Assembly (NCBI GenBank): GCA_017463225.1
Contig: JAFTPO010000051.1
Span: forward strand, 1 to 64,000
Direction: 5' to 3'
Source: Lachnospiraceae bacterium
Lineage (GTDB): Bacteria; Bacillota; Clostridia; Lachnospirales; Lachnospiraceae
Length of the DNA: 64,000 nucleotides
Shown here: positions 5,868-28,618 of the stretch, in pieces
Layout of the letters: each line of letters starts with the position of its first letter
How positions within the stretch are numbered: position 1 is the first letter of the stretch
The notes under the pieces: model-generated
The model's input: the letters and a program-made list of their open reading frames with translations, nothing else
Database searches by the model: none
Told to the model about the DNA's origin: nothing
Position numbers and translations under genes: made by a program

Positions 5868-7013
5868 ATGTTTTGGCATAATTTTAAATATACATTTTTA
5901 ATAACACTTAGAAGTAAGGATCAGATATTCTGGAGCTTAATCTTTACAGTTATTCTTGGAACACTGTTTTATTCTACCTTTGGAAATGCTTATGAATTCG
6001 AACAGCTACAGAGCAACATTCCAGTGGTTGTATACTTAGATGATGAAGCGGTTCAGAAGAATTTTGGTGATATGATAGAAGATATTTCCATAGTTGAAAG
6101 TGGAGAAAAGCTATTAGCTGTAACCTATGTGGATTCCTTTGAAGAGGGCAAGGAGCTTCTTGTTGATGATACTATTGGATTCTTTTATTCAGAGGATGGA
6201 ATGCTAAAGCTTATGGTAAATGGTAACGGTATTCAGGAAAGTATCCTGTCAACTATAGTGGCTAATTACCACCAGATAGTAACAATTATGACTGACCTTT
6301 CCAGTAAGGGTCCTGAGGCTCAGATGGCTGCTATAGAGAAGCTTTTTAGTGAAGCTAGTAACAATGAAGGAATAAGCTTGGGCAAGAAGGCAAATATGGA
6401 TGCGTATTCAGATTATTTCTTTAACCTTATTGCAATGTCATGTCTATTCGCCAGCTTTGCAGGGGTTGCTTTTACTATTAATAACCAGGCTAATCTTTCT
6501 ACCATAGGTGCAAGAAAGAACGTATCAAATACAGGTGGCCTGACTCAGCTTATATCAGGACTTTCAGCTATATGGATATTACTTTCAGCTATGACCTGCA
6601 TAGCCTTTGGGTACCTATTATTAATAGGTGTAAATTTTGGAGATGAGATTCCAAGAATTATCTTGACTATATTTGTAGGAAATATGGTAGGTCTTACCTC
6701 TGGATTCTTTATAGGAAGTATAGGTAAGCTTTCAGAGGGAGTAAAGGAGGCTATTGCGGTAGCATATTCACTTATTAGCTGCTTTATGAGTGGACTTATG
6801 CTTCAGATGATGAAGCCTATGATTCATATGTATTGTCCTATTCTTGAAAAGATTAACCCGGCAGCCAGACTCTGTGACGCTCTATATTCTCTTAAGGTTT
6901 ACGAAACCTATGATAGATTTAACGAGAATATAATAACACTTCTTGTTATGACAGTGATATTTACGCTTGGAGGATTTTTATTAGGAAGGAGAAAGCAGTA
7001 TGCAAGTATTTAA
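5868..7013 (+). CDS. ABC-2 type permease (first subunit)
   Basis: 381-residue integral membrane protein: one helix at about residues 15-37, a large extracytoplasmic domain to about 180, then five further helices. This is the layout of ABC-2 permeases. It partners with the adjacent ATPase. The ribosome site AAGGAGG overlaps the end of the ATPase gene, and the 3' end overlaps the next permease gene by 14 bases, showing tight operon coupling. It shares architecture with the following gene, so the two probably form a heterodimer. Confidence 0.87.
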   Translation: MFWHNFKYTFLITLRSKDQIFWSLIFTVILGTLFYSTFGNAYEFEQLQSNIPVVVYLDDEAVQKNFGDMIEDISIVESGEKLLAVTYVDSFEEGKELLVDDTIGFFYSEDGMLKLMVNGNGIQESILSTIVANYHQIVTIMTDLSSKGPEAQMAAIEKLFSEASNNEGISLGKKANMDAYSDYFFNLIAMSCLFASFAGVAFTINNQANLSTIGARKNVSNTGGLTQLISGLSAIWILLSAMTCIAFGYLLLIGVNFGDEIPRIILTIFVGNMVGLTSGFFIGSIGKLSEGVKEAIAVAYSLISCFMSGLMLQMMKPMIHMYCPILEKINPAARLCDALYSLKVYETYDRFNENIITLLVMTVIFTLGGFLLGRRKQYASI

Positions 7014-20332: not shown

Positions 20333-20361
20333 TTGATTCTTGATTGAAGTTGGTATATAAT
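20333..20361 (+). promoter_or_regulatory. Promoter of the AgrC-like regulatory cluster
   Basis: TTGATT, 17-base spacer, TATAAT; 38 bases before the start at 20400. Confidence 0.6.
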
Positions 20362-20399
20362 AAGTTGACCTACATAATACGCAAATGAGGAGTAAAAAT

Positions 20400-21626
20400 A
20401 TGTCATATGGTGATATAGTAGTTACATTTATATATGCAATGCAGATGATGATATGTGTTTTGTTTGCACTTCCCTATAAGAGAAGCAAAAAACACATTTT
20501 TTTATTGTTAATAGTTACTGTTGTAGAGTATTGCTTTGTTAAAATACCTACGTTACATGTAGAAACCTATTGGATGGCTTTTGTGGTGGAATTTTTTGGA
20601 ACCTTAATGGTTCTTGCACTGTTTAACGGTGGAAATATTTGGCGTAACTTTTTGATATCCTGGTTTAATTTTCAATGTGCAAACATATTGATAATCATCG
20701 AAAGCGCTTTGGCCAGCTATTTTGTTGAAGTTGAATCTATTATTATTTTTGGGGCATCAGGTAAGGAAGATGACTATGTTTTTGTGGAGATTCTGCTTAT
20801 GCTTTGTAATTCCTTGGTAGCTTTAGCAATATCCAGAAAAATATTTAAGATTAGATACGATAACGATGGAAAAATATATAAATATTTGGTTGCAATTGTT
20901 GTCATTCTTGGAACTGTGTTAGGTTTGAAAAAGAACTATATGATAGCAGCAGTTAGAGAAGGGTCAACCAAGGAATTATACAAATTATATGTGACTGCTG
21001 TTGCCATTATTTTAATTCTTATGTATTTGGTTAGTTATTTTTATAATTTGGCAGAAACCAGGAGATTGATTAAGGAGAGAAATCAGTTAACGCAATTAAT
21101 AAAAGACAATTATGATAAATATGAAAAAGAGATTGAAAATAATAAAGAGCTTGAAAAAGTTAAGAATGAAATTAATGAGGATGATTTTATTAAGGATACC
21201 TTTCAGATTGATGTATCTTCTATAACACTTACGGGGAATTTAACTATTGATACTATAATTTCGAAGTACTATCAGGAAGCTAAGCGAAGAAATGTAGTCT
21301 TGGAGTTAAATATACTGCCTTTGGAGAGTGATATGCATAGAGACATGAATCTTGCAACAATTATTCATGAATTGATGAGACAAGGATTTAAATACGCAAC
21401 TGACAGCAGGGAGAACTGGATTTATTTTAGGATTATTAAGAATATGAATAATTTGTTGATTAAGCTGGAATATGGTAAAACTGAGGGCGCTAAGACCAAT
21501 ACTAAGGATATGAAGCTTGTGCATAGGATTGTTACCATGGATGGAGGAATAATAAACGTTTCTGACAAAAGCAGGGAAACTCATGTTAGTATAATGCTTC
21601 CTTTATATAATACTAATAATGCATAA
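20400..21626 (+). CDS. Polytopic AgrC-like protein with degenerate GHKL domain (pseudokinase A)
   Basis: 408 residues. About six to seven hydrophobic helices fill residues 5-215, a coiled coil spans about 220-260, then a GHKL-like module follows. The module keeps the AgrC-type TGNLTIDTII segment at about 278, but the phospho-acceptor H-box (RHD) is absent from the preceding helix. The ATP-site N-box reads IIHELMRQGFKYA in place of the canonical NLLDNAIEA type, and no GxG loop is visible. It is therefore unlikely to bind ATP or autophosphorylate by itself. AGGAG 8 bases before ATG 20400 fixes the start. A LytTR regulator, a second degenerate protein and a short intact kinase follow. Confidence 0.78.
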   Translation: MSYGDIVVTFIYAMQMMICVLFALPYKRSKKHIFLLLIVTVVEYCFVKIPTLHVETYWMAFVVEFFGTLMVLALFNGGNIWRNFLISWFNFQCANILIIIESALASYFVEVESIIIFGASGKEDDYVFVEILLMLCNSLVALAISRKIFKIRYDNDGKIYKYLVAIVVILGTVLGLKKNYMIAAVREGSTKELYKLYVTAVAIILILMYLVSYFYNLAETRRLIKERNQLTQLIKDNYDKYEKEIENNKELEKVKNEINEDDFIKDTFQIDVSSITLTGNLTIDTIISKYYQEAKRRNVVLELNILPLESDMHRDMNLATIIHELMRQGFKYATDSRENWIYFRIIKNMNNLLIKLEYGKTEGAKTNTKDMKLVHRIVTMDGGIINVSDKSRETHVSIMLPLYNTNNA

Positions 21627-21713
21627 AAAAAGGTAAAATATGCAATATATGTGTATAAAAATGCAAACTGTATTATAATGCCGTTATGTATAATGGGTAC
21701 GGAGGATAAGGAT

Positions 21714-22424
21714 ATGACACTTATAATATGTGATGATGATATAAAAGATGCGGAGAGGACTAAGGAACTGGTGGAACAGTTACCCATAGTTAAAGATTTT
21801 GATATTAAGATTAAAGCTCCACAGGATGTGAGTATAGCTGTAGAAGAAGAATTGTTTAAATGCGATATTTTGATTATGGATATTCAGTATGAGGGTGAAG
21901 ATTATGACGGTATAGATTTAACAAAGAGAATTAATGATGTTTTACCTGCCTGTCAGATTATCTTCCTGAGCAATATTCTGGACTTTGCTCCAATGGTATA
22001 TGAGACAAATCACTGTTACTTTGTTATGAAGGAAAATATGGACATTATGCTTCCAAGAGCTATAGAAAAGGCGGTAAAAAGCTTTAATAACACAGGAAAT
22101 GATATTATAGAATTCTTAAGCAACGGGCATAAAGTGTACACATCACAAAGTGAGATAGTATATATTGAAAGAGACGATAGAGTTCTTAATATTAACACAC
22201 TAAAAAAGACTTATCAATGCTATACTTCACTTAAAAAGATTGAAGAAAATCTAGGCGATTGCTTCGTGAGATGTCATGGAGGCTTTATTGTAAATCTGGC
22301 ATATGTTTCTGGGATAGATGGTAATCAGCTATACCTAAAGGATGGAACACAGATACCTATAGGTATGCGTTTCTTCGAAGATTTCAAACTCAAATATCTG
22401 ATGTTTTATTCTGATAGAATGTAG
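21714..22424 (+). CDS. LytTR-family response regulator (AgrA-like)
   Basis: 236 residues. The receiver domain has an acidic cluster ICDDDIKD at about 5-12, phospho-acceptor Asp in DILIMDIQYEG near 58 and conserved FLSN near 90. The C-terminal LytTR DNA-binding domain (about 140-232) has YIERDDRVLNI, CFVRCHGGFIVNLAYV and the usual closing strand LKDGTQIPIGMRF. GGAGG before ATG 21714 decides the start; the open frame extends 21 codons upstream without support. It is embedded between two degenerate AgrC-like genes, so the phosphate donor is probably the short kinase encoded at 23773. Confidence 0.9.
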   Translation: MTLIICDDDIKDAERTKELVEQLPIVKDFDIKIKAPQDVSIAVEEELFKCDILIMDIQYEGEDYDGIDLTKRINDVLPACQIIFLSNILDFAPMVYETNHCYFVMKENMDIMLPRAIEKAVKSFNNTGNDIIEFLSNGHKVYTSQSEIVYIERDDRVLNINTLKKTYQCYTSLKKIEENLGDCFVRCHGGFIVNLAYVSGIDGNQLYLKDGTQIPIGMRFFEDFKLKYLMFYSDRM

Positions 22425-22463
22425 ATAGTGTCAAAATTTTTACAAAAGAGAGGTTCATAATAG

Positions 22464-23759
22464 ATGCTTTCATACTATATTGTTGATATTAGCTATGCTA
22501 CCAATATGTTTTTTATACTAACTATTATGTTATCTTATAAAAGAAGTAGGAAGACCTTGCCCATAGCATTTGTACTTGGCCTGGGAATATATGTGATTCT
22601 GGATTATATTTGCATGTCAAAGATACCTGGACTAAGTATGCAGTTTAGTTTTGTTATAGCGGGATATTTTGAAATGTTTTCTACCTTTGGAATGCTTTGT
22701 CTTTTTACCAGAGGCAATATTTGGAGAAATTACACTTTTCTCATACTGGCATTTGTATTGATTAATGCATTGGTTAGCTTGATTATATCCTTTGATTCAG
22801 GGCTTGAAGAAATATTTGCTTCATATTTAGTTAATGGTGATGTGCCTACATATGCTGCAGTTGCCTTTTGTGTAATTACTGTTATAAGTGGTATTATAGT
22901 AACGTTAATTATGTCAAAACTACTGAGCAAGGAATACAAGGGTAACGGAAGAATATATATGATATTCAGCTTATTGTATGCATTATTGGGTATCGTTCAG
23001 GTAGTGTTTAAAACCAGTGCAGTTGAAGAAGGCTTAAAGCAGGATGTAATTACAGATGTCCCTAAGCTAGTGTTTGTAGTTATTGGAGTTACAACATTTT
23101 ATGTTTTTGGCTTGCTATATTATCGTTCTGAAAGGAAATCTTTAAAAAAAGAGAATGAAAAGCTGATGGAGTACATTCAGGGTAATGACGCCAGATACCA
23201 AAAGCTTGTGGAGGATAATAAGAAGCTTACAGCTGTAAAAACAGACATATTAGAATACGCAGGAAATCTAAACGGAGATAGGGACAGATTGTACAAGCAG
23301 GAGCTACAGGACTTGGCCAACGTGGTTACCGGTGTTAGCTTAACCGGAAATCTGGTTATAGATTCTCTTATTAAGGATTGTTATGATAAAGCAAAGAACA
23401 TAGGAGTAAGCTGCGAGATAATACCTGGGAATGTAACATTTGATGAAGATAATATAATTAGCTATGCAACTATAATCGAAAATCTATTGCTCATAGCAAG
23501 AGAATGCGCTTCTAAGGCTAAGAACAAATGGATGTATGTTTCATTTAAACAGAATGGAGAATTGGTATTGGTGAAAACCGAATTCTCCAAGGAAAAGAAG
23601 GATAAATTGCATATAGGCGGCAATATTTTTCAGAAGCAGACCGCCAGTTTGCATAGATTAAAGCTTATCAAGTCTATATCTGAGTTTATGAGTGGTACCA
23701 TTAATATCGTAAACAATGATGAAGAGGGAAGTATAGGAGTATTATTAAACAATATGTAG
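22464..23759 (+). CDS. Second polytopic AgrC-like protein with degenerate GHKL domain (pseudokinase B)
   Basis: 431 residues, same plan as the protein at 20400: six to seven membrane helices in residues 5-215, coiled coil to about 280, then VSLTGNLVIDSLI at about 292. The ATP-site N-box region reads IIENLLLIARECASKA; the central DN-A pair of GHKL kinases is missing, as are a clear H-box and GxG loop. Its similarity to the first copy (opening helices, KRSRKT/KRSKKH motif, ARGNIWRNY/NGGNIWRNF motif) indicates duplication. The start has GAGAGG 10 bases upstream. It is 13 bases ahead of the intact kinase gene. Confidence 0.78.
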   Translation: MLSYYIVDISYATNMFFILTIMLSYKRSRKTLPIAFVLGLGIYVILDYICMSKIPGLSMQFSFVIAGYFEMFSTFGMLCLFTRGNIWRNYTFLILAFVLINALVSLIISFDSGLEEIFASYLVNGDVPTYAAVAFCVITVISGIIVTLIMSKLLSKEYKGNGRIYMIFSLLYALLGIVQVVFKTSAVEEGLKQDVITDVPKLVFVVIGVTTFYVFGLLYYRSERKSLKKENEKLMEYIQGNDARYQKLVEDNKKLTAVKTDILEYAGNLNGDRDRLYKQELQDLANVVTGVSLTGNLVIDSLIKDCYDKAKNIGVSCEIIPGNVTFDEDNIISYATIIENLLLIARECASKAKNKWMYVSFKQNGELVLVKTEFSKEKKDKLHIGGNIFQKQTASLHRLKLIKSISEFMSGTINIVNNDEEGSIGVLLNNM

Positions 23760-23772
23760 GGGACAACGTAAG

Positions 23773-24429
23773 ATGGACATAGTAAGTGTATTGATAATAT
23801 TAGTTTTAATGCTAATAATTTTATCTCAGTTCATTCAGATGAAAAGAACAAAGGAAATAAACGAGAAGCTACGAAAGATAGTTAGCGATAGCAATGAACA
23901 ATATCAGGGTGTAGTAGAGATAAATAAGAATTTAAAGCATATAAGACATGATATAAATAAACAGAGAAGCATAGCCAGGGACATGGACGAGAATAAAAGC
24001 GTGAGTTCTATGACGGGTATAGAGGTTATAGATAGAATACTTCACTTTAAGGGAAAAGAGATGAGTGAAAAGAATATCAATTTTCGCGTAGAGACTATTC
24101 CACTAGAGGGTGTTAACATAGGGCATAGCGCACTTATAAGCATTCTTACAAATATATTCGACAATGCAATTGAAGCCTGCGAGAGAATTAATAATCCGTG
24201 GATTAGTTGTAAGGTGCAGGAAGATAAAACCTATGGTCTTCATATGATAGTGGAGAATACAAAGAGAAGCGATATAATGATTGATGTAAAAAATATATTT
24301 ACAACGAAGACTGATAGAGAGTTGCATGGGTATGGAATAACCATTATTAAAGAGTTGGTTGAAAAAAATGGAGGAGAATTGCAAATGGAAGATAAAGGTG
24401 AAGTGTTTTATTTAGAGTTTAAAGTATAA
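23773..24429 (+). CDS. Minimal GHKL histidine kinase with intact catalytic motifs
   Basis: 218 residues with one N-terminal membrane helix (about 4-22), a short coiled coil and a compact kinase. The H-box LKHIRHDINKQ is at about 56-66, the AgrC-like MTGIEVIDRIL at about 82, the N-box LTNIFDNAIEAC at about 126 and the G-box GYGITIIKELVEKNGG near 190. It lacks the multi-helix sensor of AgrC proteins but retains every catalytic element the two upstream homologues lack. This suggests a division of labour: sensing by the polytopic partners, catalysis by this protein, output by the LytTR regulator. Confidence 0.85.
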   Translation: MDIVSVLIILVLMLIILSQFIQMKRTKEINEKLRKIVSDSNEQYQGVVEINKNLKHIRHDINKQRSIARDMDENKSVSSMTGIEVIDRILHFKGKEMSEKNINFRVETIPLEGVNIGHSALISILTNIFDNAIEACERINNPWISCKVQEDKTYGLHMIVENTKRSDIMIDVKNIFTTKTDRELHGYGITIIKELVEKNGGELQMEDKGEVFYLEFKV

Positions 24430-24505: not shown

Positions 24506-24539
24506 CTTACTTGCGTTGAGTTACGACTCAATGGTAAAT

Positions 24540-24623
24540 GCGGGAGTGCTGGAATTGGCAGACAGGCTAGACTAAGGATCTAGTGATGGTAACGTCGTGT
24601 GGGTTCAAGTCCCATCTCCCGCA
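24540..24623 (+). tRNA. tRNA-Leu (anticodon AAG)
   Basis: 84-base class II tRNA. The acceptor stem GCGGGAG pairs with CTCCCGC, discriminator A. The D stem is CTG/CAG with a TTGGCAGA loop. Anticodon stem CTAGA/TCTAG encloses CTAAGGA, giving anticodon AAG with G37. The long variable arm and T arm GTGGG-TTCAAGT-CCCAT follow. The CCA end is not encoded. It reads CUU, and CUC if A34 is deaminated to inosine or unmodified A34 decodes broadly. Confidence 0.96.
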
Positions 24624-24640
24624 TTATTTTTTTTGAAACG

Positions 24641-24882: not shown

Positions 24883-26748
24883 ATGATAAAAGTGCCAAGG
24901 AAAAAGAACAATCCAAATATAAACGAATATATAAATGATAAAGAATATATATGTAATAAGTACGTAATTAAGAGCTTTGCTATAACTATGTATATTTTTA
25001 CATTGGTATTATTGTTGAATTTATTAGGAATATTCACCGTTAATCAAAGGGTTATGGTTAGTGGTTATGTTGTTTGTCTTATAGTATATATTGTTATGTT
25101 GTTGGTTCTTAAGAAACTGACTCTGGATAATCCAAAGACTAAATATTTTATGCTGTTTATTATTGTGGTTATGTTTACGATTATGGGAGTATCTGTAACT
25201 TATCACGCGGTGCTCATATCTTTGTTGCAATTTTTGTATGCATCAATATATTCTTCAAAAAAGGTATTAAATTATGTTTATATATTAACAGTAATAAGCA
25301 CATTTTTAGTTGTTTATTTGGGATATTATGTAGGGCTTTGTGATGCAAATATGACATTGTTAACCACAGATCGTCTGCAGGATTATGTGGTTGATGGTCA
25401 GTTTGCATTGACGCAGGTTAATGAGAACCCAATGATTACACTGTTCTTATTCTTTGTGTTGCCTAGGTGTCTTATTTACATAGCTTATGTGTTCATATGC
25501 AATAATATATTTACTATAGTTAGCGAAAGTATAGAACGTGCAAAGCTAGCAGATGAGCTTGCTAAGGCTAAGGAGGAGGCAGATAAGGCTAATCAGGCTA
25601 AGACCAGATTTCTCGCCAGAATGTCTCATGAAATAAGAACTCCTATCAATGCTGTTATAGGTATGAATGAGATGATAATAAGAGAAAGTAAAGAGGAAAA
25701 TATCAAGAAGTATGCTTCTGACGTGAAGGACTCTTCTAATGTACTGCTTAATATAATCAATGAAATCTTAGATGCATCTAAGATAGAGTCAGGTATGATG
25801 GAGCTTGCTCCGGCTAGATACAAGCTGGATAGCTTTCTTAATGACCTGTATAATATGATTAATCTTAGAGCAACTAATAAAGGATTAAAGCTAGTTTTTG
25901 ATATTGATCCGAAGCTACCTAGTGAGTATTTTGGTGATGATAGATGTATTAGACAGGTACTTACCAATCTGCTTACCAATGCGGTTAAATATACTAACGA
26001 AGGTATGGTTAAACTTTCTGTAAGTGGAACTATTCAAGGCGATACTGCCACACTTCGTTATATAGTTAAAGATACAGGAATTGGTTTTAAACCTGAGGAT
26101 ATAGAAAACATTTATGGAGAGTTTAAGAGATTTGATCTTTCTAGAAATAGAGATGTAGAAGGTTCAGGCCTTGGCATGAATATTGTACAGTCTTTACTTA
26201 AGCTTATGGGAAGCCAGCTTAAGATAGAAAGTGAGTACGAAAAGGGAAGTGAATTTTCCTTTGTTATAGAGCAGGAAATAACCAATGCTGAGCCTATAGG
26301 AGATTACAAGAAAAGTATTGAGAAAATGGCTGTCAAGGAGGCAGATAGTATTAAGTTTGTAGCTCCAGAGGCAAGGATTCTAGTGGTGGATGACAACATT
26401 ATGAATCTCAAGGTTTTCTCTAAACTGATTAGTCATGTAGAGGCTGAAATAACAGAGGTAGATAGTGGTAAGAAATGTTTGGAGCTTCTAAAGGATAATT
26501 GCTATGACATTATCTTTTTAGACCATATGATGCCAGAGATGGATGGTATAGAAACCCTTCATCATATAAAGGAGGAAAGGCTTGCTATAGGAACCCCAAT
26601 TATTATGCTTACAGCAAATGCCATAGCAGGAGATAGGGAGATGTATCTTGAGGAAGGCTTTGATGATTTTATATCCAAACCGGTTATGCCAAAGGCTTTA
26701 GATGAGATGTTAATACAATATTTGAAGGATAAGGTGATATATCAGTAA
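24883..26748 (+). CDS. Hybrid sensor histidine kinase with C-terminal receiver
   Basis: 621 residues. About six membrane helices (residues 28-210) are followed by a coiled linker (ADELAKAKEEADKANQAKTR). The HisKA domain has the H-box FLARMSHEIRTPINAV, with acceptor His near 249. HATPase_c shows N-box IRQVLTNLLTNAVKYT near 362 and G-box GSGLGMNIVQ near 427. A receiver at about 500-615 has ARILVVDDN, phospho-Asp in IIFLDHMMPEMDG and the Lys of FISKPV. No DNA-binding output is fused, so the signal must pass to a separate protein. The ribosome site is poor (AAAGG two bases before ATG), leaving some doubt about the start. Monocistronic. Confidence 0.9.
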   Translation: MIKVPRKKNNPNINEYINDKEYICNKYVIKSFAITMYIFTLVLLLNLLGIFTVNQRVMVSGYVVCLIVYIVMLLVLKKLTLDNPKTKYFMLFIIVVMFTIMGVSVTYHAVLISLLQFLYASIYSSKKVLNYVYILTVISTFLVVYLGYYVGLCDANMTLLTTDRLQDYVVDGQFALTQVNENPMITLFLFFVLPRCLIYIAYVFICNNIFTIVSESIERAKLADELAKAKEEADKANQAKTRFLARMSHEIRTPINAVIGMNEMIIRESKEENIKKYASDVKDSSNVLLNIINEILDASKIESGMMELAPARYKLDSFLNDLYNMINLRATNKGLKLVFDIDPKLPSEYFGDDRCIRQVLTNLLTNAVKYTNEGMVKLSVSGTIQGDTATLRYIVKDTGIGFKPEDIENIYGEFKRFDLSRNRDVEGSGLGMNIVQSLLKLMGSQLKIESEYEKGSEFSFVIEQEITNAEPIGDYKKSIEKMAVKEADSIKFVAPEARILVVDDNIMNLKVFSKLISHVEAEITEVDSGKKCLELLKDNCYDIIFLDHMMPEMDGIETLHHIKEERLAIGTPIIMLTANAIAGDREMYLEEGFDDFISKPVMPKALDEMLIQYLKDKVIYQ

Positions 26749-26755
26749 TATAAGG

Positions 26756-26787
26756 AAAAGAACAGAGAAAACTCTGTTCTTTTTTTG
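26756..26787 (+). terminator. Terminator of the hybrid kinase gene
   Basis: 12-bp stem AAAAGAACAGAG/CTCTGTTCTTTT, AAAA loop, T-rich tail. Confidence 0.92.
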
Positions 26788-26805
26788 TCGAAATCCTTAT
26801 AACCC

Positions 26806-26870
26806 TTTGCCAGCCCTTAACCAAATCCATATACCCTTTAGCCACATATTTACCAACCTAATGCTATAAT
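26806..26870 (+). promoter_or_regulatory. Pho-box-like repeat array and promoter of the phosphate permease gene
   Basis: TTTGCC (26806), TTAACC (26817), TTAGCC (26838) and TTTACC (26849) recur on an 11-base helical-turn spacing, with the 26828 position degenerate. They precede an extended -10 TGCTATAAT (26862-26870) that has no good -35. PhoP boxes of Bacillus are TT-A-A repeats of the same period placed upstream of the -10. Confidence 0.5.
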
Positions 26871-26931
26871 TCAATTGGGACTAAAAATTTATTGGTAAAA
26901 AAATCATAGAGAAAGGATTACATATTAAAGT

Positions 26932-27981
26932 ATGAGCATTATGGACTTTATCAGTCAGATGGTTGCGAATCCCATGCTACTTGTGTCAACTATTCTGACC
27001 TTGGGTGTTATTTTAGTCAATGGGTGGACAGATGCACCAAATGCAATTGCTACATGCGTTTCTACCAGAGCTATAAACGTGCGAAAAGCTATTATTATGG
27101 CAGCGGTATTTAATTTTTTTGGTGTACTGATTATGACATCTATCAATGCATCTGTGGCATTTACCATATATAATATGGTAGATTTTGGTGGTGATTCTAA
27201 ATTGGCGCTTATAGCACTTTGTGCGGCTATGGCGGCCATAGTAATTTGGGCTACTGCAGCCTGGTATTTTGGAATTCCTACAAGTGAGAGTCATGCTCTT
27301 ATTGCAGGCATATCAGGGGCTGCAGTTGCTATACAAAATAGCTTTTCGGGAATCAATGGTGGAGAGTGGATAAAGGTCCTTTATGGAATAGGTTTATCTA
27401 CATTGTTGGGATTCGGTCTGGGATATGTATCATCCAAGCTTACAGTGGCTATATTTAGGAAAAAAAACCGTCTTAAATCTGAGAAATTCTTCTCAGGGGC
27501 GCAGGTTGCAGGTGGAGCTGCTATGGCATTTATGCACGGAGCCCAGGATGGACAAAAGTTTATGGCAATATTTTTACTGGGAGCGGCCATGGCTGGTGGA
27601 CAGGCTTCAGCATCTAGCTTTGTGGTTCCGGTGTGGCTTATGATACTTTGTTCTGCTGTTATGGGATTGGGAACATCCATAGGGGGGTATAGGATTATAA
27701 AGTCGGTTGGTATGGATATGGTAAAGCTTAAACCCTACCAGGGCTTTGCGGCGGATTTTTCAGCTACCATATGCTTGCTTCTTTCTTCTCTTACAGGTAT
27801 TCCTGTGAGTACTACTCACACCAAGACAACTGCTATTATGGGTGTGGGTGCTGCAAGAAGAATCAGCAATGTTAATTGGTCAGTGGTAAAAGAATTGGTG
27901 TTAACCTGGGTATTTACATTTCCGGGTTGCGGTTTGTTAGGCTTTGGAATGGCAAAGTTATTTTTGATGATATTTGCATAG
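26932..27981 (+). CDS. pit: Inorganic phosphate transporter, PiT family
   Basis: 349-residue polytopic membrane protein of the low-affinity H+/metal-phosphate symport family. The PiT signature is duplicated in inverted halves: GWTDAPNAIATCVSTRA at about 31 and MHGAQDGQKFMA near 203, plus GIPTSESHAL and GIPVSTTHTKTTAIMG, the repeated Ser/Thr-His phosphate loops. The ribosome site (AAAGGA) lies 14 bases upstream, a poor spacing, but an in-frame stop just before the ATG excludes longer forms. It is followed after 16 bases by a DUF47 protein, the usual PiT accessory. The phased repeats upstream suggest phosphate-starvation control. Confidence 0.93.
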   Translation: MSIMDFISQMVANPMLLVSTILTLGVILVNGWTDAPNAIATCVSTRAINVRKAIIMAAVFNFFGVLIMTSINASVAFTIYNMVDFGGDSKLALIALCAAMAAIVIWATAAWYFGIPTSESHALIAGISGAAVAIQNSFSGINGGEWIKVLYGIGLSTLLGFGLGYVSSKLTVAIFRKKNRLKSEKFFSGAQVAGGAAMAFMHGAQDGQKFMAIFLLGAAMAGGQASASSFVVPVWLMILCSAVMGLGTSIGGYRIIKSVGMDMVKLKPYQGFAADFSATICLLLSSLTGIPVSTTHTKTTAIMGVGAARRISNVNWSVVKELVLTWVFTFPGCGLLGFGMAKLFLMIFA

Positions 27982-27997
27982 GGAGGTTGTATTAATT

Positions 27998-28618
27998 ATG
28001 GCAAAGAAGAACAATGATTATTTTGAACTTATAAAGAAGCAGACTACTTGCTGTGTAGAGGCTTCTAATCTTTTGGAGGAGATATTGTGTAAATTTCAAG
28101 CTAGCAATATAAGTGAGTATAGAGATAGAATGCATGAGATAGAGCATAGAGCAGATGGAGTTCATCATGATATTTTGAATAAGCTTTCCACAGAGTTCAT
28201 AACTCCTATTGACCAGGAGGATATTCTTCGCTTGGTGCAGATTATAGATGACATTACAGATGCATTAGATGAGGTTATTCTCGATATGTATATGTATCAT
28301 ATAAAAATAATACCTGATAGAACAGCTGAGCTGTCTAAAATCGTAAATAGATGTGTAAAGGCCCTTGATGAGGCGGCGGCAGAGCTTAAGAACTTTAAGA
28401 AACGTGAAGCTTTACATTCCTTACTTGTAAAGGTAAATGATATTGAGACAGAGGCTGATTATGTCTATATTGAGGCTTTATATAAGCTTTTTGAAGAAAA
28501 TGTGGATGGTAAAACCTTAACAGGAGCTAAGGCAGTTTATGAAGCTTTAGAGAGCTGCTGTGATTTGTGTGAAAATGCGGCAGATATTATAGAACAGGTT
28601 GTGATTAAGAATACATAG
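27998..28618 (+). CDS. DUF47/PhoU-like PiT accessory protein
   Basis: 206 residues, all-helical, cytoplasmic. It resembles the YkaA/DUF47 family of PhoU-related proteins: MHEIEHRADGVHHDILNKL with conserved acidic/His pattern, IDQEDILRLVQIIDDITDALDEV in the centre, and a mirrored IETEADYVYIEAL and CCDLCENAADIIEQ towards the end, consistent with two three-helix bundles that bind metal ions. DUF47 genes habitually sit beside pit genes and are thought to gate them. GGGAGG 8 bases before ATG 27998 fixes the start. Confidence 0.9.
   Translation: MAKKNNDYFELIKKQTTCCVEASNLLEEILCKFQASNISEYRDRMHEIEHRADGVHHDILNKLSTEFITPIDQEDILRLVQIIDDITDALDEVILDMYMYHIKIIPDRTAELSKIVNRCVKALDEAAAELKNFKKREALHSLLVKVNDIETEADYVYIEALYKLFEENVDGKTLTGAKAVYEALESCCDLCENAADIIEQVVIKNT

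Follow-up and report, generated by a model that had tools for sequence, protein, structure and literature searches.

Introduction

The sensor kinase of a two-component system is normally one protein. Short kinases of the Bce type are under the control of a transporter, and CckA and GacS, the partners of DivL and RetS, are sensor kinases in their own right. DivL and RetS are described as kinase-like proteins that act on a second, active kinase (PMC12189002, PMC4211667), and CheA3/CheA4 of Rhodobacter and Hik36/Hik43 of Synechocystis as one histidine kinase function distributed over two proteins (PMC3591291, PMC7656254). Here we analyzed a four-gene locus at positions 20400-24429 of a 64,000-nucleotide stretch of DNA (hereafter the window) from a Lachnospiraceae bacterium, in which a LytTR response regulator (RR) and a short GHKL histidine kinase (K) are encoded together with two polytopic membrane proteins, A and B. 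The genome is 2.77 Mb in size and the window sits on its contig C55. We propose that the locus is a split receptor-kinase two-component system in which A and B, receptors without a functional catalytic core, would form complexes with K; judging from sequence comparisons, we place the probability of this reading at roughly 0.6.

Results

The four genes lie on the + strand in the order A, RR, B and K. Gene A occupies an open reading frame (ORF) at 20385-21626 with its likely start at the ATG at 20400, and encodes a protein of 408 amino acids (aa) with about 6-7 helices, a coiled coil and a degenerate DHp/GHKL region devoid of the acceptor His, the N-box and the G-box (ORF calls, Pfam, blastp and motif alignment). 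The RR gene has an ORF that begins at 21651 and a likely ATG start that is preceded by GGAGGA (21714-22424, 236 aa); Pfam and alignment identified its product as a LytTR response regulator that keeps the receiver Asp. Receptor B (22464-23759, 431 aa) is, by blastp and motif alignment, a paralogue of A with the same degeneration. The product of the last gene, K (23773-24429, 218 aa), is a one-helix GHKL histidine kinase with intact RHD, DNAIEA and HGYG motifs (Pfam and motif alignment). At the sites where K has H and N..DN..E, A has N and E..RQ..K and B has T and N..LI..E, and neither receptor has a G box at the site of HGYG. A sequence-only reading of the window had described four same-strand genes in which the two polytopic proteins lacked the H-, N- and G-boxes and only the short protein was intact. 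Both points were borne out by the ORFs, Pfam and the motif alignment, and no intact motif set was found by alignment in A, B or 18 relatives.

We then compared the catalytic residues, in K numbering, of 20 receptor-like proteins (from 14 genomes of four genera) and 15 short kinases. H59, N131 and N162 were kept in 0/20 receptor-like proteins each, N127 in 5/20, G186 in 2/20 and G188 in 1/20. Among the short kinases, H59 was kept in 14/15 and N127, N131, N162, G186 and G188 in 15/15 each. Twelve polytopic comparators, which include three weakly matching kinases and one fused protein of genome G062, kept H59 in 11, N127 in 10, N131 in 12, N162 in 10, G186 in 12 and G188 in 12 cases. The isolated matches in the receptors were the first Asn of the N-box, in the five proteins counted above, and stray Gly residues in the hardly alignable proteins of G032 and G012; an earlier motif alignment differed in single letters (one comparator without N131, and the Gly matches in G032 and G012). 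The DHp helix is absent from the four receptors of G035 and G006, and the ATPase region is barely recognisable in those of G032 and G012. The exception among the short kinases was that of G015 (L098:6290-6970), which has Lys for the acceptor His and intact N and G boxes. Its polytopic neighbour is interrupted by the contig end so that the membrane part alone is visible, and a search of 117 genomes for full-length relatives of this receptor, made to see if the His was kept, returned only the receptor itself.

In Pfam searches (E<=1), K matched the GHKL domain PF14501 (1.7e-19) and HATPase_c (5.7e-8), while RR matched LytTR (5.7e-18) and, under the cut-off, Response_reg (1e-4). For A and B there was no kinase domain match in Pfam at the same threshold and none convincing in NCBIfam; when ten receptor-like relatives were scanned, two orthologues of A gave marginal GHKL matches (0.018 and 0.033) that fell short of the profile's cut-off. 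A and B are homologous to each other (28% identity, E 3e-35 by blastp), and both match K (E 3e-10 for A and 2e-7 for B) over the last helix, the coiled coil and the TGN..ID region. Alignment of the receptor profile with the K profile by hhalign gave 99.2% and an E-value of 3.6e-19 over 201 columns, running from the last helix through the coiled coil, TGN..ID and the ATPase region to the C terminus. Because of this homology in both blastp and profile-profile comparison, K corresponds to the C-terminal half of A or B, and A and B are kinases with a ruined active site. Among solved structures, the profile of the K family matched 3a0t best (2e-8) and also the AgrC structures 4bxi (1e-5) and 6e52 (4.3e-5), and the A/B profile matched nothing significantly (best E 0.41). 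By alignment, the receptors keep the predicted parts of a dimer partner, namely the membrane part, the last helix, the coiled coil and the DHp-ATPase junction, and have lost what K would supply.

The genus comprises 37 genomes, 12 of which had a K-profile match with an open frame of <260 aa; three further genomes matched the K profile with long frames only. A polytopic partner adjoins the short K in 11 of the 12 (G000, G031, G013, G003, G009, G024, G019, G035, G006, G032 and G015), and in the twelfth, G007, the contig ends beside K. Ten K-bearing genomes gave evidence of a dead receptor, that of G015 being limited to its membrane part. A receptor without K was found in G012 and G025, on contigs of ~3.3 kb. 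The co-occurrence of K and partner in the genus (both, K only, partner only, neither) was 11/1/2/23 (Fisher 1e-6) and, when only receptor-profile matches were counted, 9/3/2/23 (Fisher 8e-5), neither value being corrected for shared ancestry. A 492-aa receptor-profile match in G030 was rejected as a receptor and excluded from these counts since it is an intact kinase. Conservation of the gene set, on which the sequence-only reading could have failed, was found in the relatives, and the exact order A-RR-B-K was found in a single one, G031. Other orders (R, receptor) were RR-B'-B-K, A-K-RR, RR-R-K, RR-K-R, R-R-RR-K, RR-K-R-R and R-RR-K. Since many loci have a single receptor, a second one is not essential.

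The receptors are kept by purifying selection. Between G035 and G006, the ratio of nonsynonymous to synonymous substitution rates (dN/dS) was 0.18 and 0.15 for the receptors and 0.12 for K. This was the one measurable pair; in the others dS was >=2.6 or infinite, and dN/dS was 0.07-0.09 where it could be computed. The receptors that we read are open frames, except for a cut at the contig end in G025 and masked letters in G209.

Beyond the genus, we searched 348 genomes of the family (up to 8 candidates scored per genome) and 392 of the order (up to 7), the two sets overlapping, and fetched 18 regions of 17 genomes, mostly for their short frames, besides G067; the short frames of G416 and G251 were left out. 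At least three further genera carry a split locus with a motif-less polytopic partner, represented by G209 and G072 (both R-RR-K) and G675 (RR-K-R). In a first tree of 45 kinase domains, a 97/97 branch set apart the 14 split kinases known at that stage, together with two fused kinases and a short kinase located at a contig end. A second tree of 43 rows, with G675 added and with duplicates and one long-branched fused kinase left out, grouped 14 of 15 split kinases (82/93), those of the genus, G209 and G675, and left the remaining fused kinase outside. The first tree had suggested one common origin for every split kinase and fusion; this reading was dropped because the 97/97 grouping was gone in the second. 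The split likely arose more than once, and the tree position of the fused kinases is unsure. The odds of a split system in the window are unchanged by this, as the claim does not depend on how often the split arose.

The fused proteins, in which a receptor half and a kinase half are joined, numbered three in G062 (538, 590 and 600 aa) and one in G213 (564 aa). They are encoded at three places (L249:4777-6393, L250:6437-10050 and L251:4747-6441), each with an adjoining LytTR regulator. The first half consists of a polytopic part, a coiled coil and a His box, which reads QHDFANH or RHDLANH and has no ATPase after it. The second half has a membrane stretch and another coiled coil, this one lacking a His, ahead of an intact GHKL ATPase. 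In Pfam, the first half matched SPOB_a in 3/4 fused proteins, each time short of the cut-off for the family (E 6e-5 to 0.009), and the second half matched GHKL in 4/4 (1e-16 to 1.5e-24). The K profile matched each fused protein twice, weakly on the His part (domain E 9e-6 to 1e-9) and strongly on the ATPase part. The predicted division of labour thus differs from that in the window, in that the acceptor belongs to the receptor half and the ATPase to the other. Gene fusion is a usual sign that separate counterparts elsewhere work together.

Nineteen regulators were aligned, leaving out those of L102, L104, L105, L107-L111 and of other genera. The receiver Asp was D in 12/12 regulators that adjoin a short K and in 3/7 of those without a short K nearby, the other four having S, E, E and E. 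The regulators of L099, L101, L103 and L106:6167-6925, which have no short kinase nearby, carry Ser or Glu where the receiver Asp would be.

Upstream of RR, at 21618-21679 on the + strand, we identified three direct repeats with the core RYGCA (units at 21618, 21639 and 21660) followed by TATAAT at 21674-21679, which together form a putative RR-controlled promoter of RR-B-K. Sites of LytTR regulators have a period of 21-22 bp, and the AgrA site differs from the RYGCA core. The repeats occur with an exact 21-bp period 5' of RR in the window, G031 and G013 and 5' of A in G003, and the third repeat ends 8-9 bases before TATAAT. A perfect three-unit match was present once per genome in these four genomes, at this site alone. 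Ten other genomes were searched, and the perfect match was absent from seven and present in 3, 1 and 2 copies in G024, G023 and G021, respectively. In the other genus of G209, a similar but weaker triplet precedes the receptor, and 10/100 shuffles were as good. When triplets with a spacing of 20-22 bases were sought de novo in 29 upstream regions, 0/100 shuffles were as good for the RR promoters of the window and G031; the fractions were 0.11 for G013, 0.14 for G003 and 0.10 for G209, and at least 0.09 for the other 24 regions. The repeats are probably the binding site of RR itself; AgrA is reported to bind two direct repeats upstream of its promoters (PMC4227749). We claim no regulon for the pattern: with one mismatch allowed, the genome of the window had it at 8 places and the reversed control at none, but six genomes without a short K also had it at 4-10 places. 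A LytTR 9-mer pattern gave one reverse-strand match across 11 upstream regions. Another candidate, close to a gene for a protein kinase in G003 (L028 ~6084-6140), was dropped, its spacing being wrong by eye. Separately, about three tandem copies of a ~33-base AT-rich unit, counted by eye, precede the regulator gene in G019 (L031, upstream of 8760).

A consensus scan found a candidate sigma-70-like promoter of A, TTGATT-17-TATAAT, at 20333-20361 on the + strand (10/12 match). Such matches occur in the region in about the number expected by chance, which makes this candidate weak; gene A may have its own promoter there. On one side the locus is flanked by a gene which, read by eye, we take to be rplT, and on the other by tRNA-Leu at 24539-24624. 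The flanking gaps contain just a 26-aa frame and four small frames without evident promise. The intergenic gaps within the locus are short and no peptide gene was recognised in it, and a systematic search for peptide genes was not made in the relatives. An agr quorum-sensing locus has AgrB, and AgrD, beside the kinase. As the sequence-only reading had stated, no AgrB is nearby: there was no match on the contig of the locus, the three AgrB matches of the genome lying on contigs C29, C74 and C21, and for AgrD no profile search was made.

Several neighbouring genes were recorded in passing. Downstream in the window (24883-28618) lie a hybrid histidine kinase gene and then, by appearance, phosphate-transporter-like and PhoU-like genes; a similar hybrid kinase is found downstream of the split locus in G031 and G013. 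In G003 (L028:889-6036) and G013 (L027:76-3715) the split locus has a Ser/Thr protein kinase gene next to it, PASTA repeats being present in one of the two kinases, and two very large open frames of >1600 aa each flank it in G032 (L035 1-5181 and 9175-14001). Other short GHKL kinases of the family (L178, L180, L184, L185 and L176) were seen by eye beside ABC transporter-like genes, most of them also with a LytTR regulator. This arrangement, which differs from the split locus, suggests that the transporters are the sensors of those kinases.

Discussion

Our results are best explained if A and B are AgrC-type membrane receptors with a decayed catalytic core and K is the complementary half, which would provide the last helix, the coiled coil, the DHp helix with the acceptor His and the ATPase but no sensor. 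One or both receptors would associate with K through the regions common to all three proteins, i.e., the last helix, the coiled coil and the TGN..ID junction. Signal binding to either receptor would then set the balance between the autokinase and phosphatase activities of K, and K would phosphorylate the conserved Asp of RR. The regulator may in turn bind the three 21-bp-spaced repeats 5' of RR-B-K and so control expression of its own operon. The sequence-only reading had both receptors and the kinase feeding one regulator. The split itself is supported by the data, and with the help of the fusions and the co-occurrence of the genes we infer a common route through complexes with K. Chances are about even that the arrangement reflects a wider principle of receptors that borrow a kinase: dead receptors would have to pair with a shared minimal kinase, different receptors could plug into one catalytic subunit and one regulator, and the related kinases of the same family in which a single chain has the His in its receptor half and the ATPase in its second half would be a mirror-image solution.

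Some observations weigh against a split system. The Fisher values may partly reflect shared ancestry of the genomes. The receptor of G072 was assigned by eye as it had no receptor-profile match, and in the second tree the kinase of G072 fell outside the group, with the contig-end short kinase of unknown partner. The receptors of G032 and G012 are so diverged that their motif positions mean little. The repeat element is absent in G009, and on their own only 2/5 repeat regions beat all shuffles. Finally, K might act alone. A truncated AgrC consisting of transmembrane helices 5-6 and the cytoplasmic part is reported to have remained a constitutive autokinase when placed in liposomes, with a response to its peptide of about twofold (PMC3841183). 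Because truncated AgrC stays active, it is plausible that K can function with a single helix, and its regulation would require partners.

The same activity would also fit a constitutively active K that A and B, as antikinases, hold off or whose phosphate they divert. RetS is reported to inhibit GacS through heterodimers (PMC12189002), and sequence cannot give the sign of the effect of A and B on K. We nevertheless regard purely negative partners as unlikely, since the His box on the receptor half of the fused proteins implies that the receptor part would there join in phosphorylation and not only block it. Distinctly less probable is that A and B function independently of K and have a binding or transport role in the membrane, and that K is an orphan kinase that happens to share the locus. 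A promoter of its own for A would agree with such independence; A and B, however, are kinase homologues with a retained coiled coil that matches K, a polytopic partner adjoins K in all but one of the K-bearing genomes of the genus, and receptor and kinase halves are fused in G062 and G213. That A and B are merely degenerating paralogues heading for loss would account for the missing catalytic motifs and for the further reduction of the DHp or ATPase part in G035, G006, G032 and G012, but is very improbable given the open frames (save the G025 contig end and the G209 masked letters), the dN/dS of 0.15-0.18 between G035 and G006 and the presence of dead receptors in several genera.

If the split system is real, it offers a natural separation of receptor and catalytic subunit that has been selected in several genera, with fused versions for comparison, and would allow direct tests of how polytopic AgrC-type receptors communicate with their kinase. 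It would also mean that genes annotated merely as membrane proteins without a domain match include two-component receptors.

The sequence-only reading knew of no named system with this composition. We likewise found no description, for the AgrC/LytTR class, of a sensorless minimal kinase whose partner is a dead, sensor-bearing homologue of it in the open-access literature searched, most subscription papers lying outside that search. The locus resembles AgrC/AgrA in the polytopic layout of its receptors, in the GHKL ATPase of K, which has intact N and G boxes and whose profile matches 4bxi and 6e52, in a LytTR regulator with its receiver Asp, and in the direct-repeat site. It differs from AgrC/AgrA in that sensor and kinase are not in one polypeptide, the receptors being kinase-dead and K having one predicted helix, and in the lack of AgrB on the contig. 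In CheA3/CheA4-type kinases, which are of the chemotaxis type, the acceptor domain is apart from the ATPase, whereas in the window sensing, by a membrane receptor, would be apart from the acceptor and the ATPase together. The fused proteins of G062 and G213 are closer to the CheA-type division, with His and ATPase on different halves; K of the window keeps both. A pseudokinase partner of the DivL/RetS type would be a catalytically dead kinase homologue that binds an active kinase. The receptors have lost the motifs and may bind K, which, unlike the partners of DivL and RetS, has no sensor of its own. As in Bce-type systems, a sensor-poor kinase would take its input from another membrane protein, which here is a dead paralogue of the kinase and not an ABC transporter. 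The separation of receptor and enzyme proposed here for a group of gut bacteria is better known from the hormone receptors of animals. Among bacterial systems, there are precedents for split kinases (CheA3/4, Hik36/43), for a pseudokinase as partner (DivL) and for a modulating kinase (RetS), and this composition in the AgrC/LytTR class would be an addition to them.

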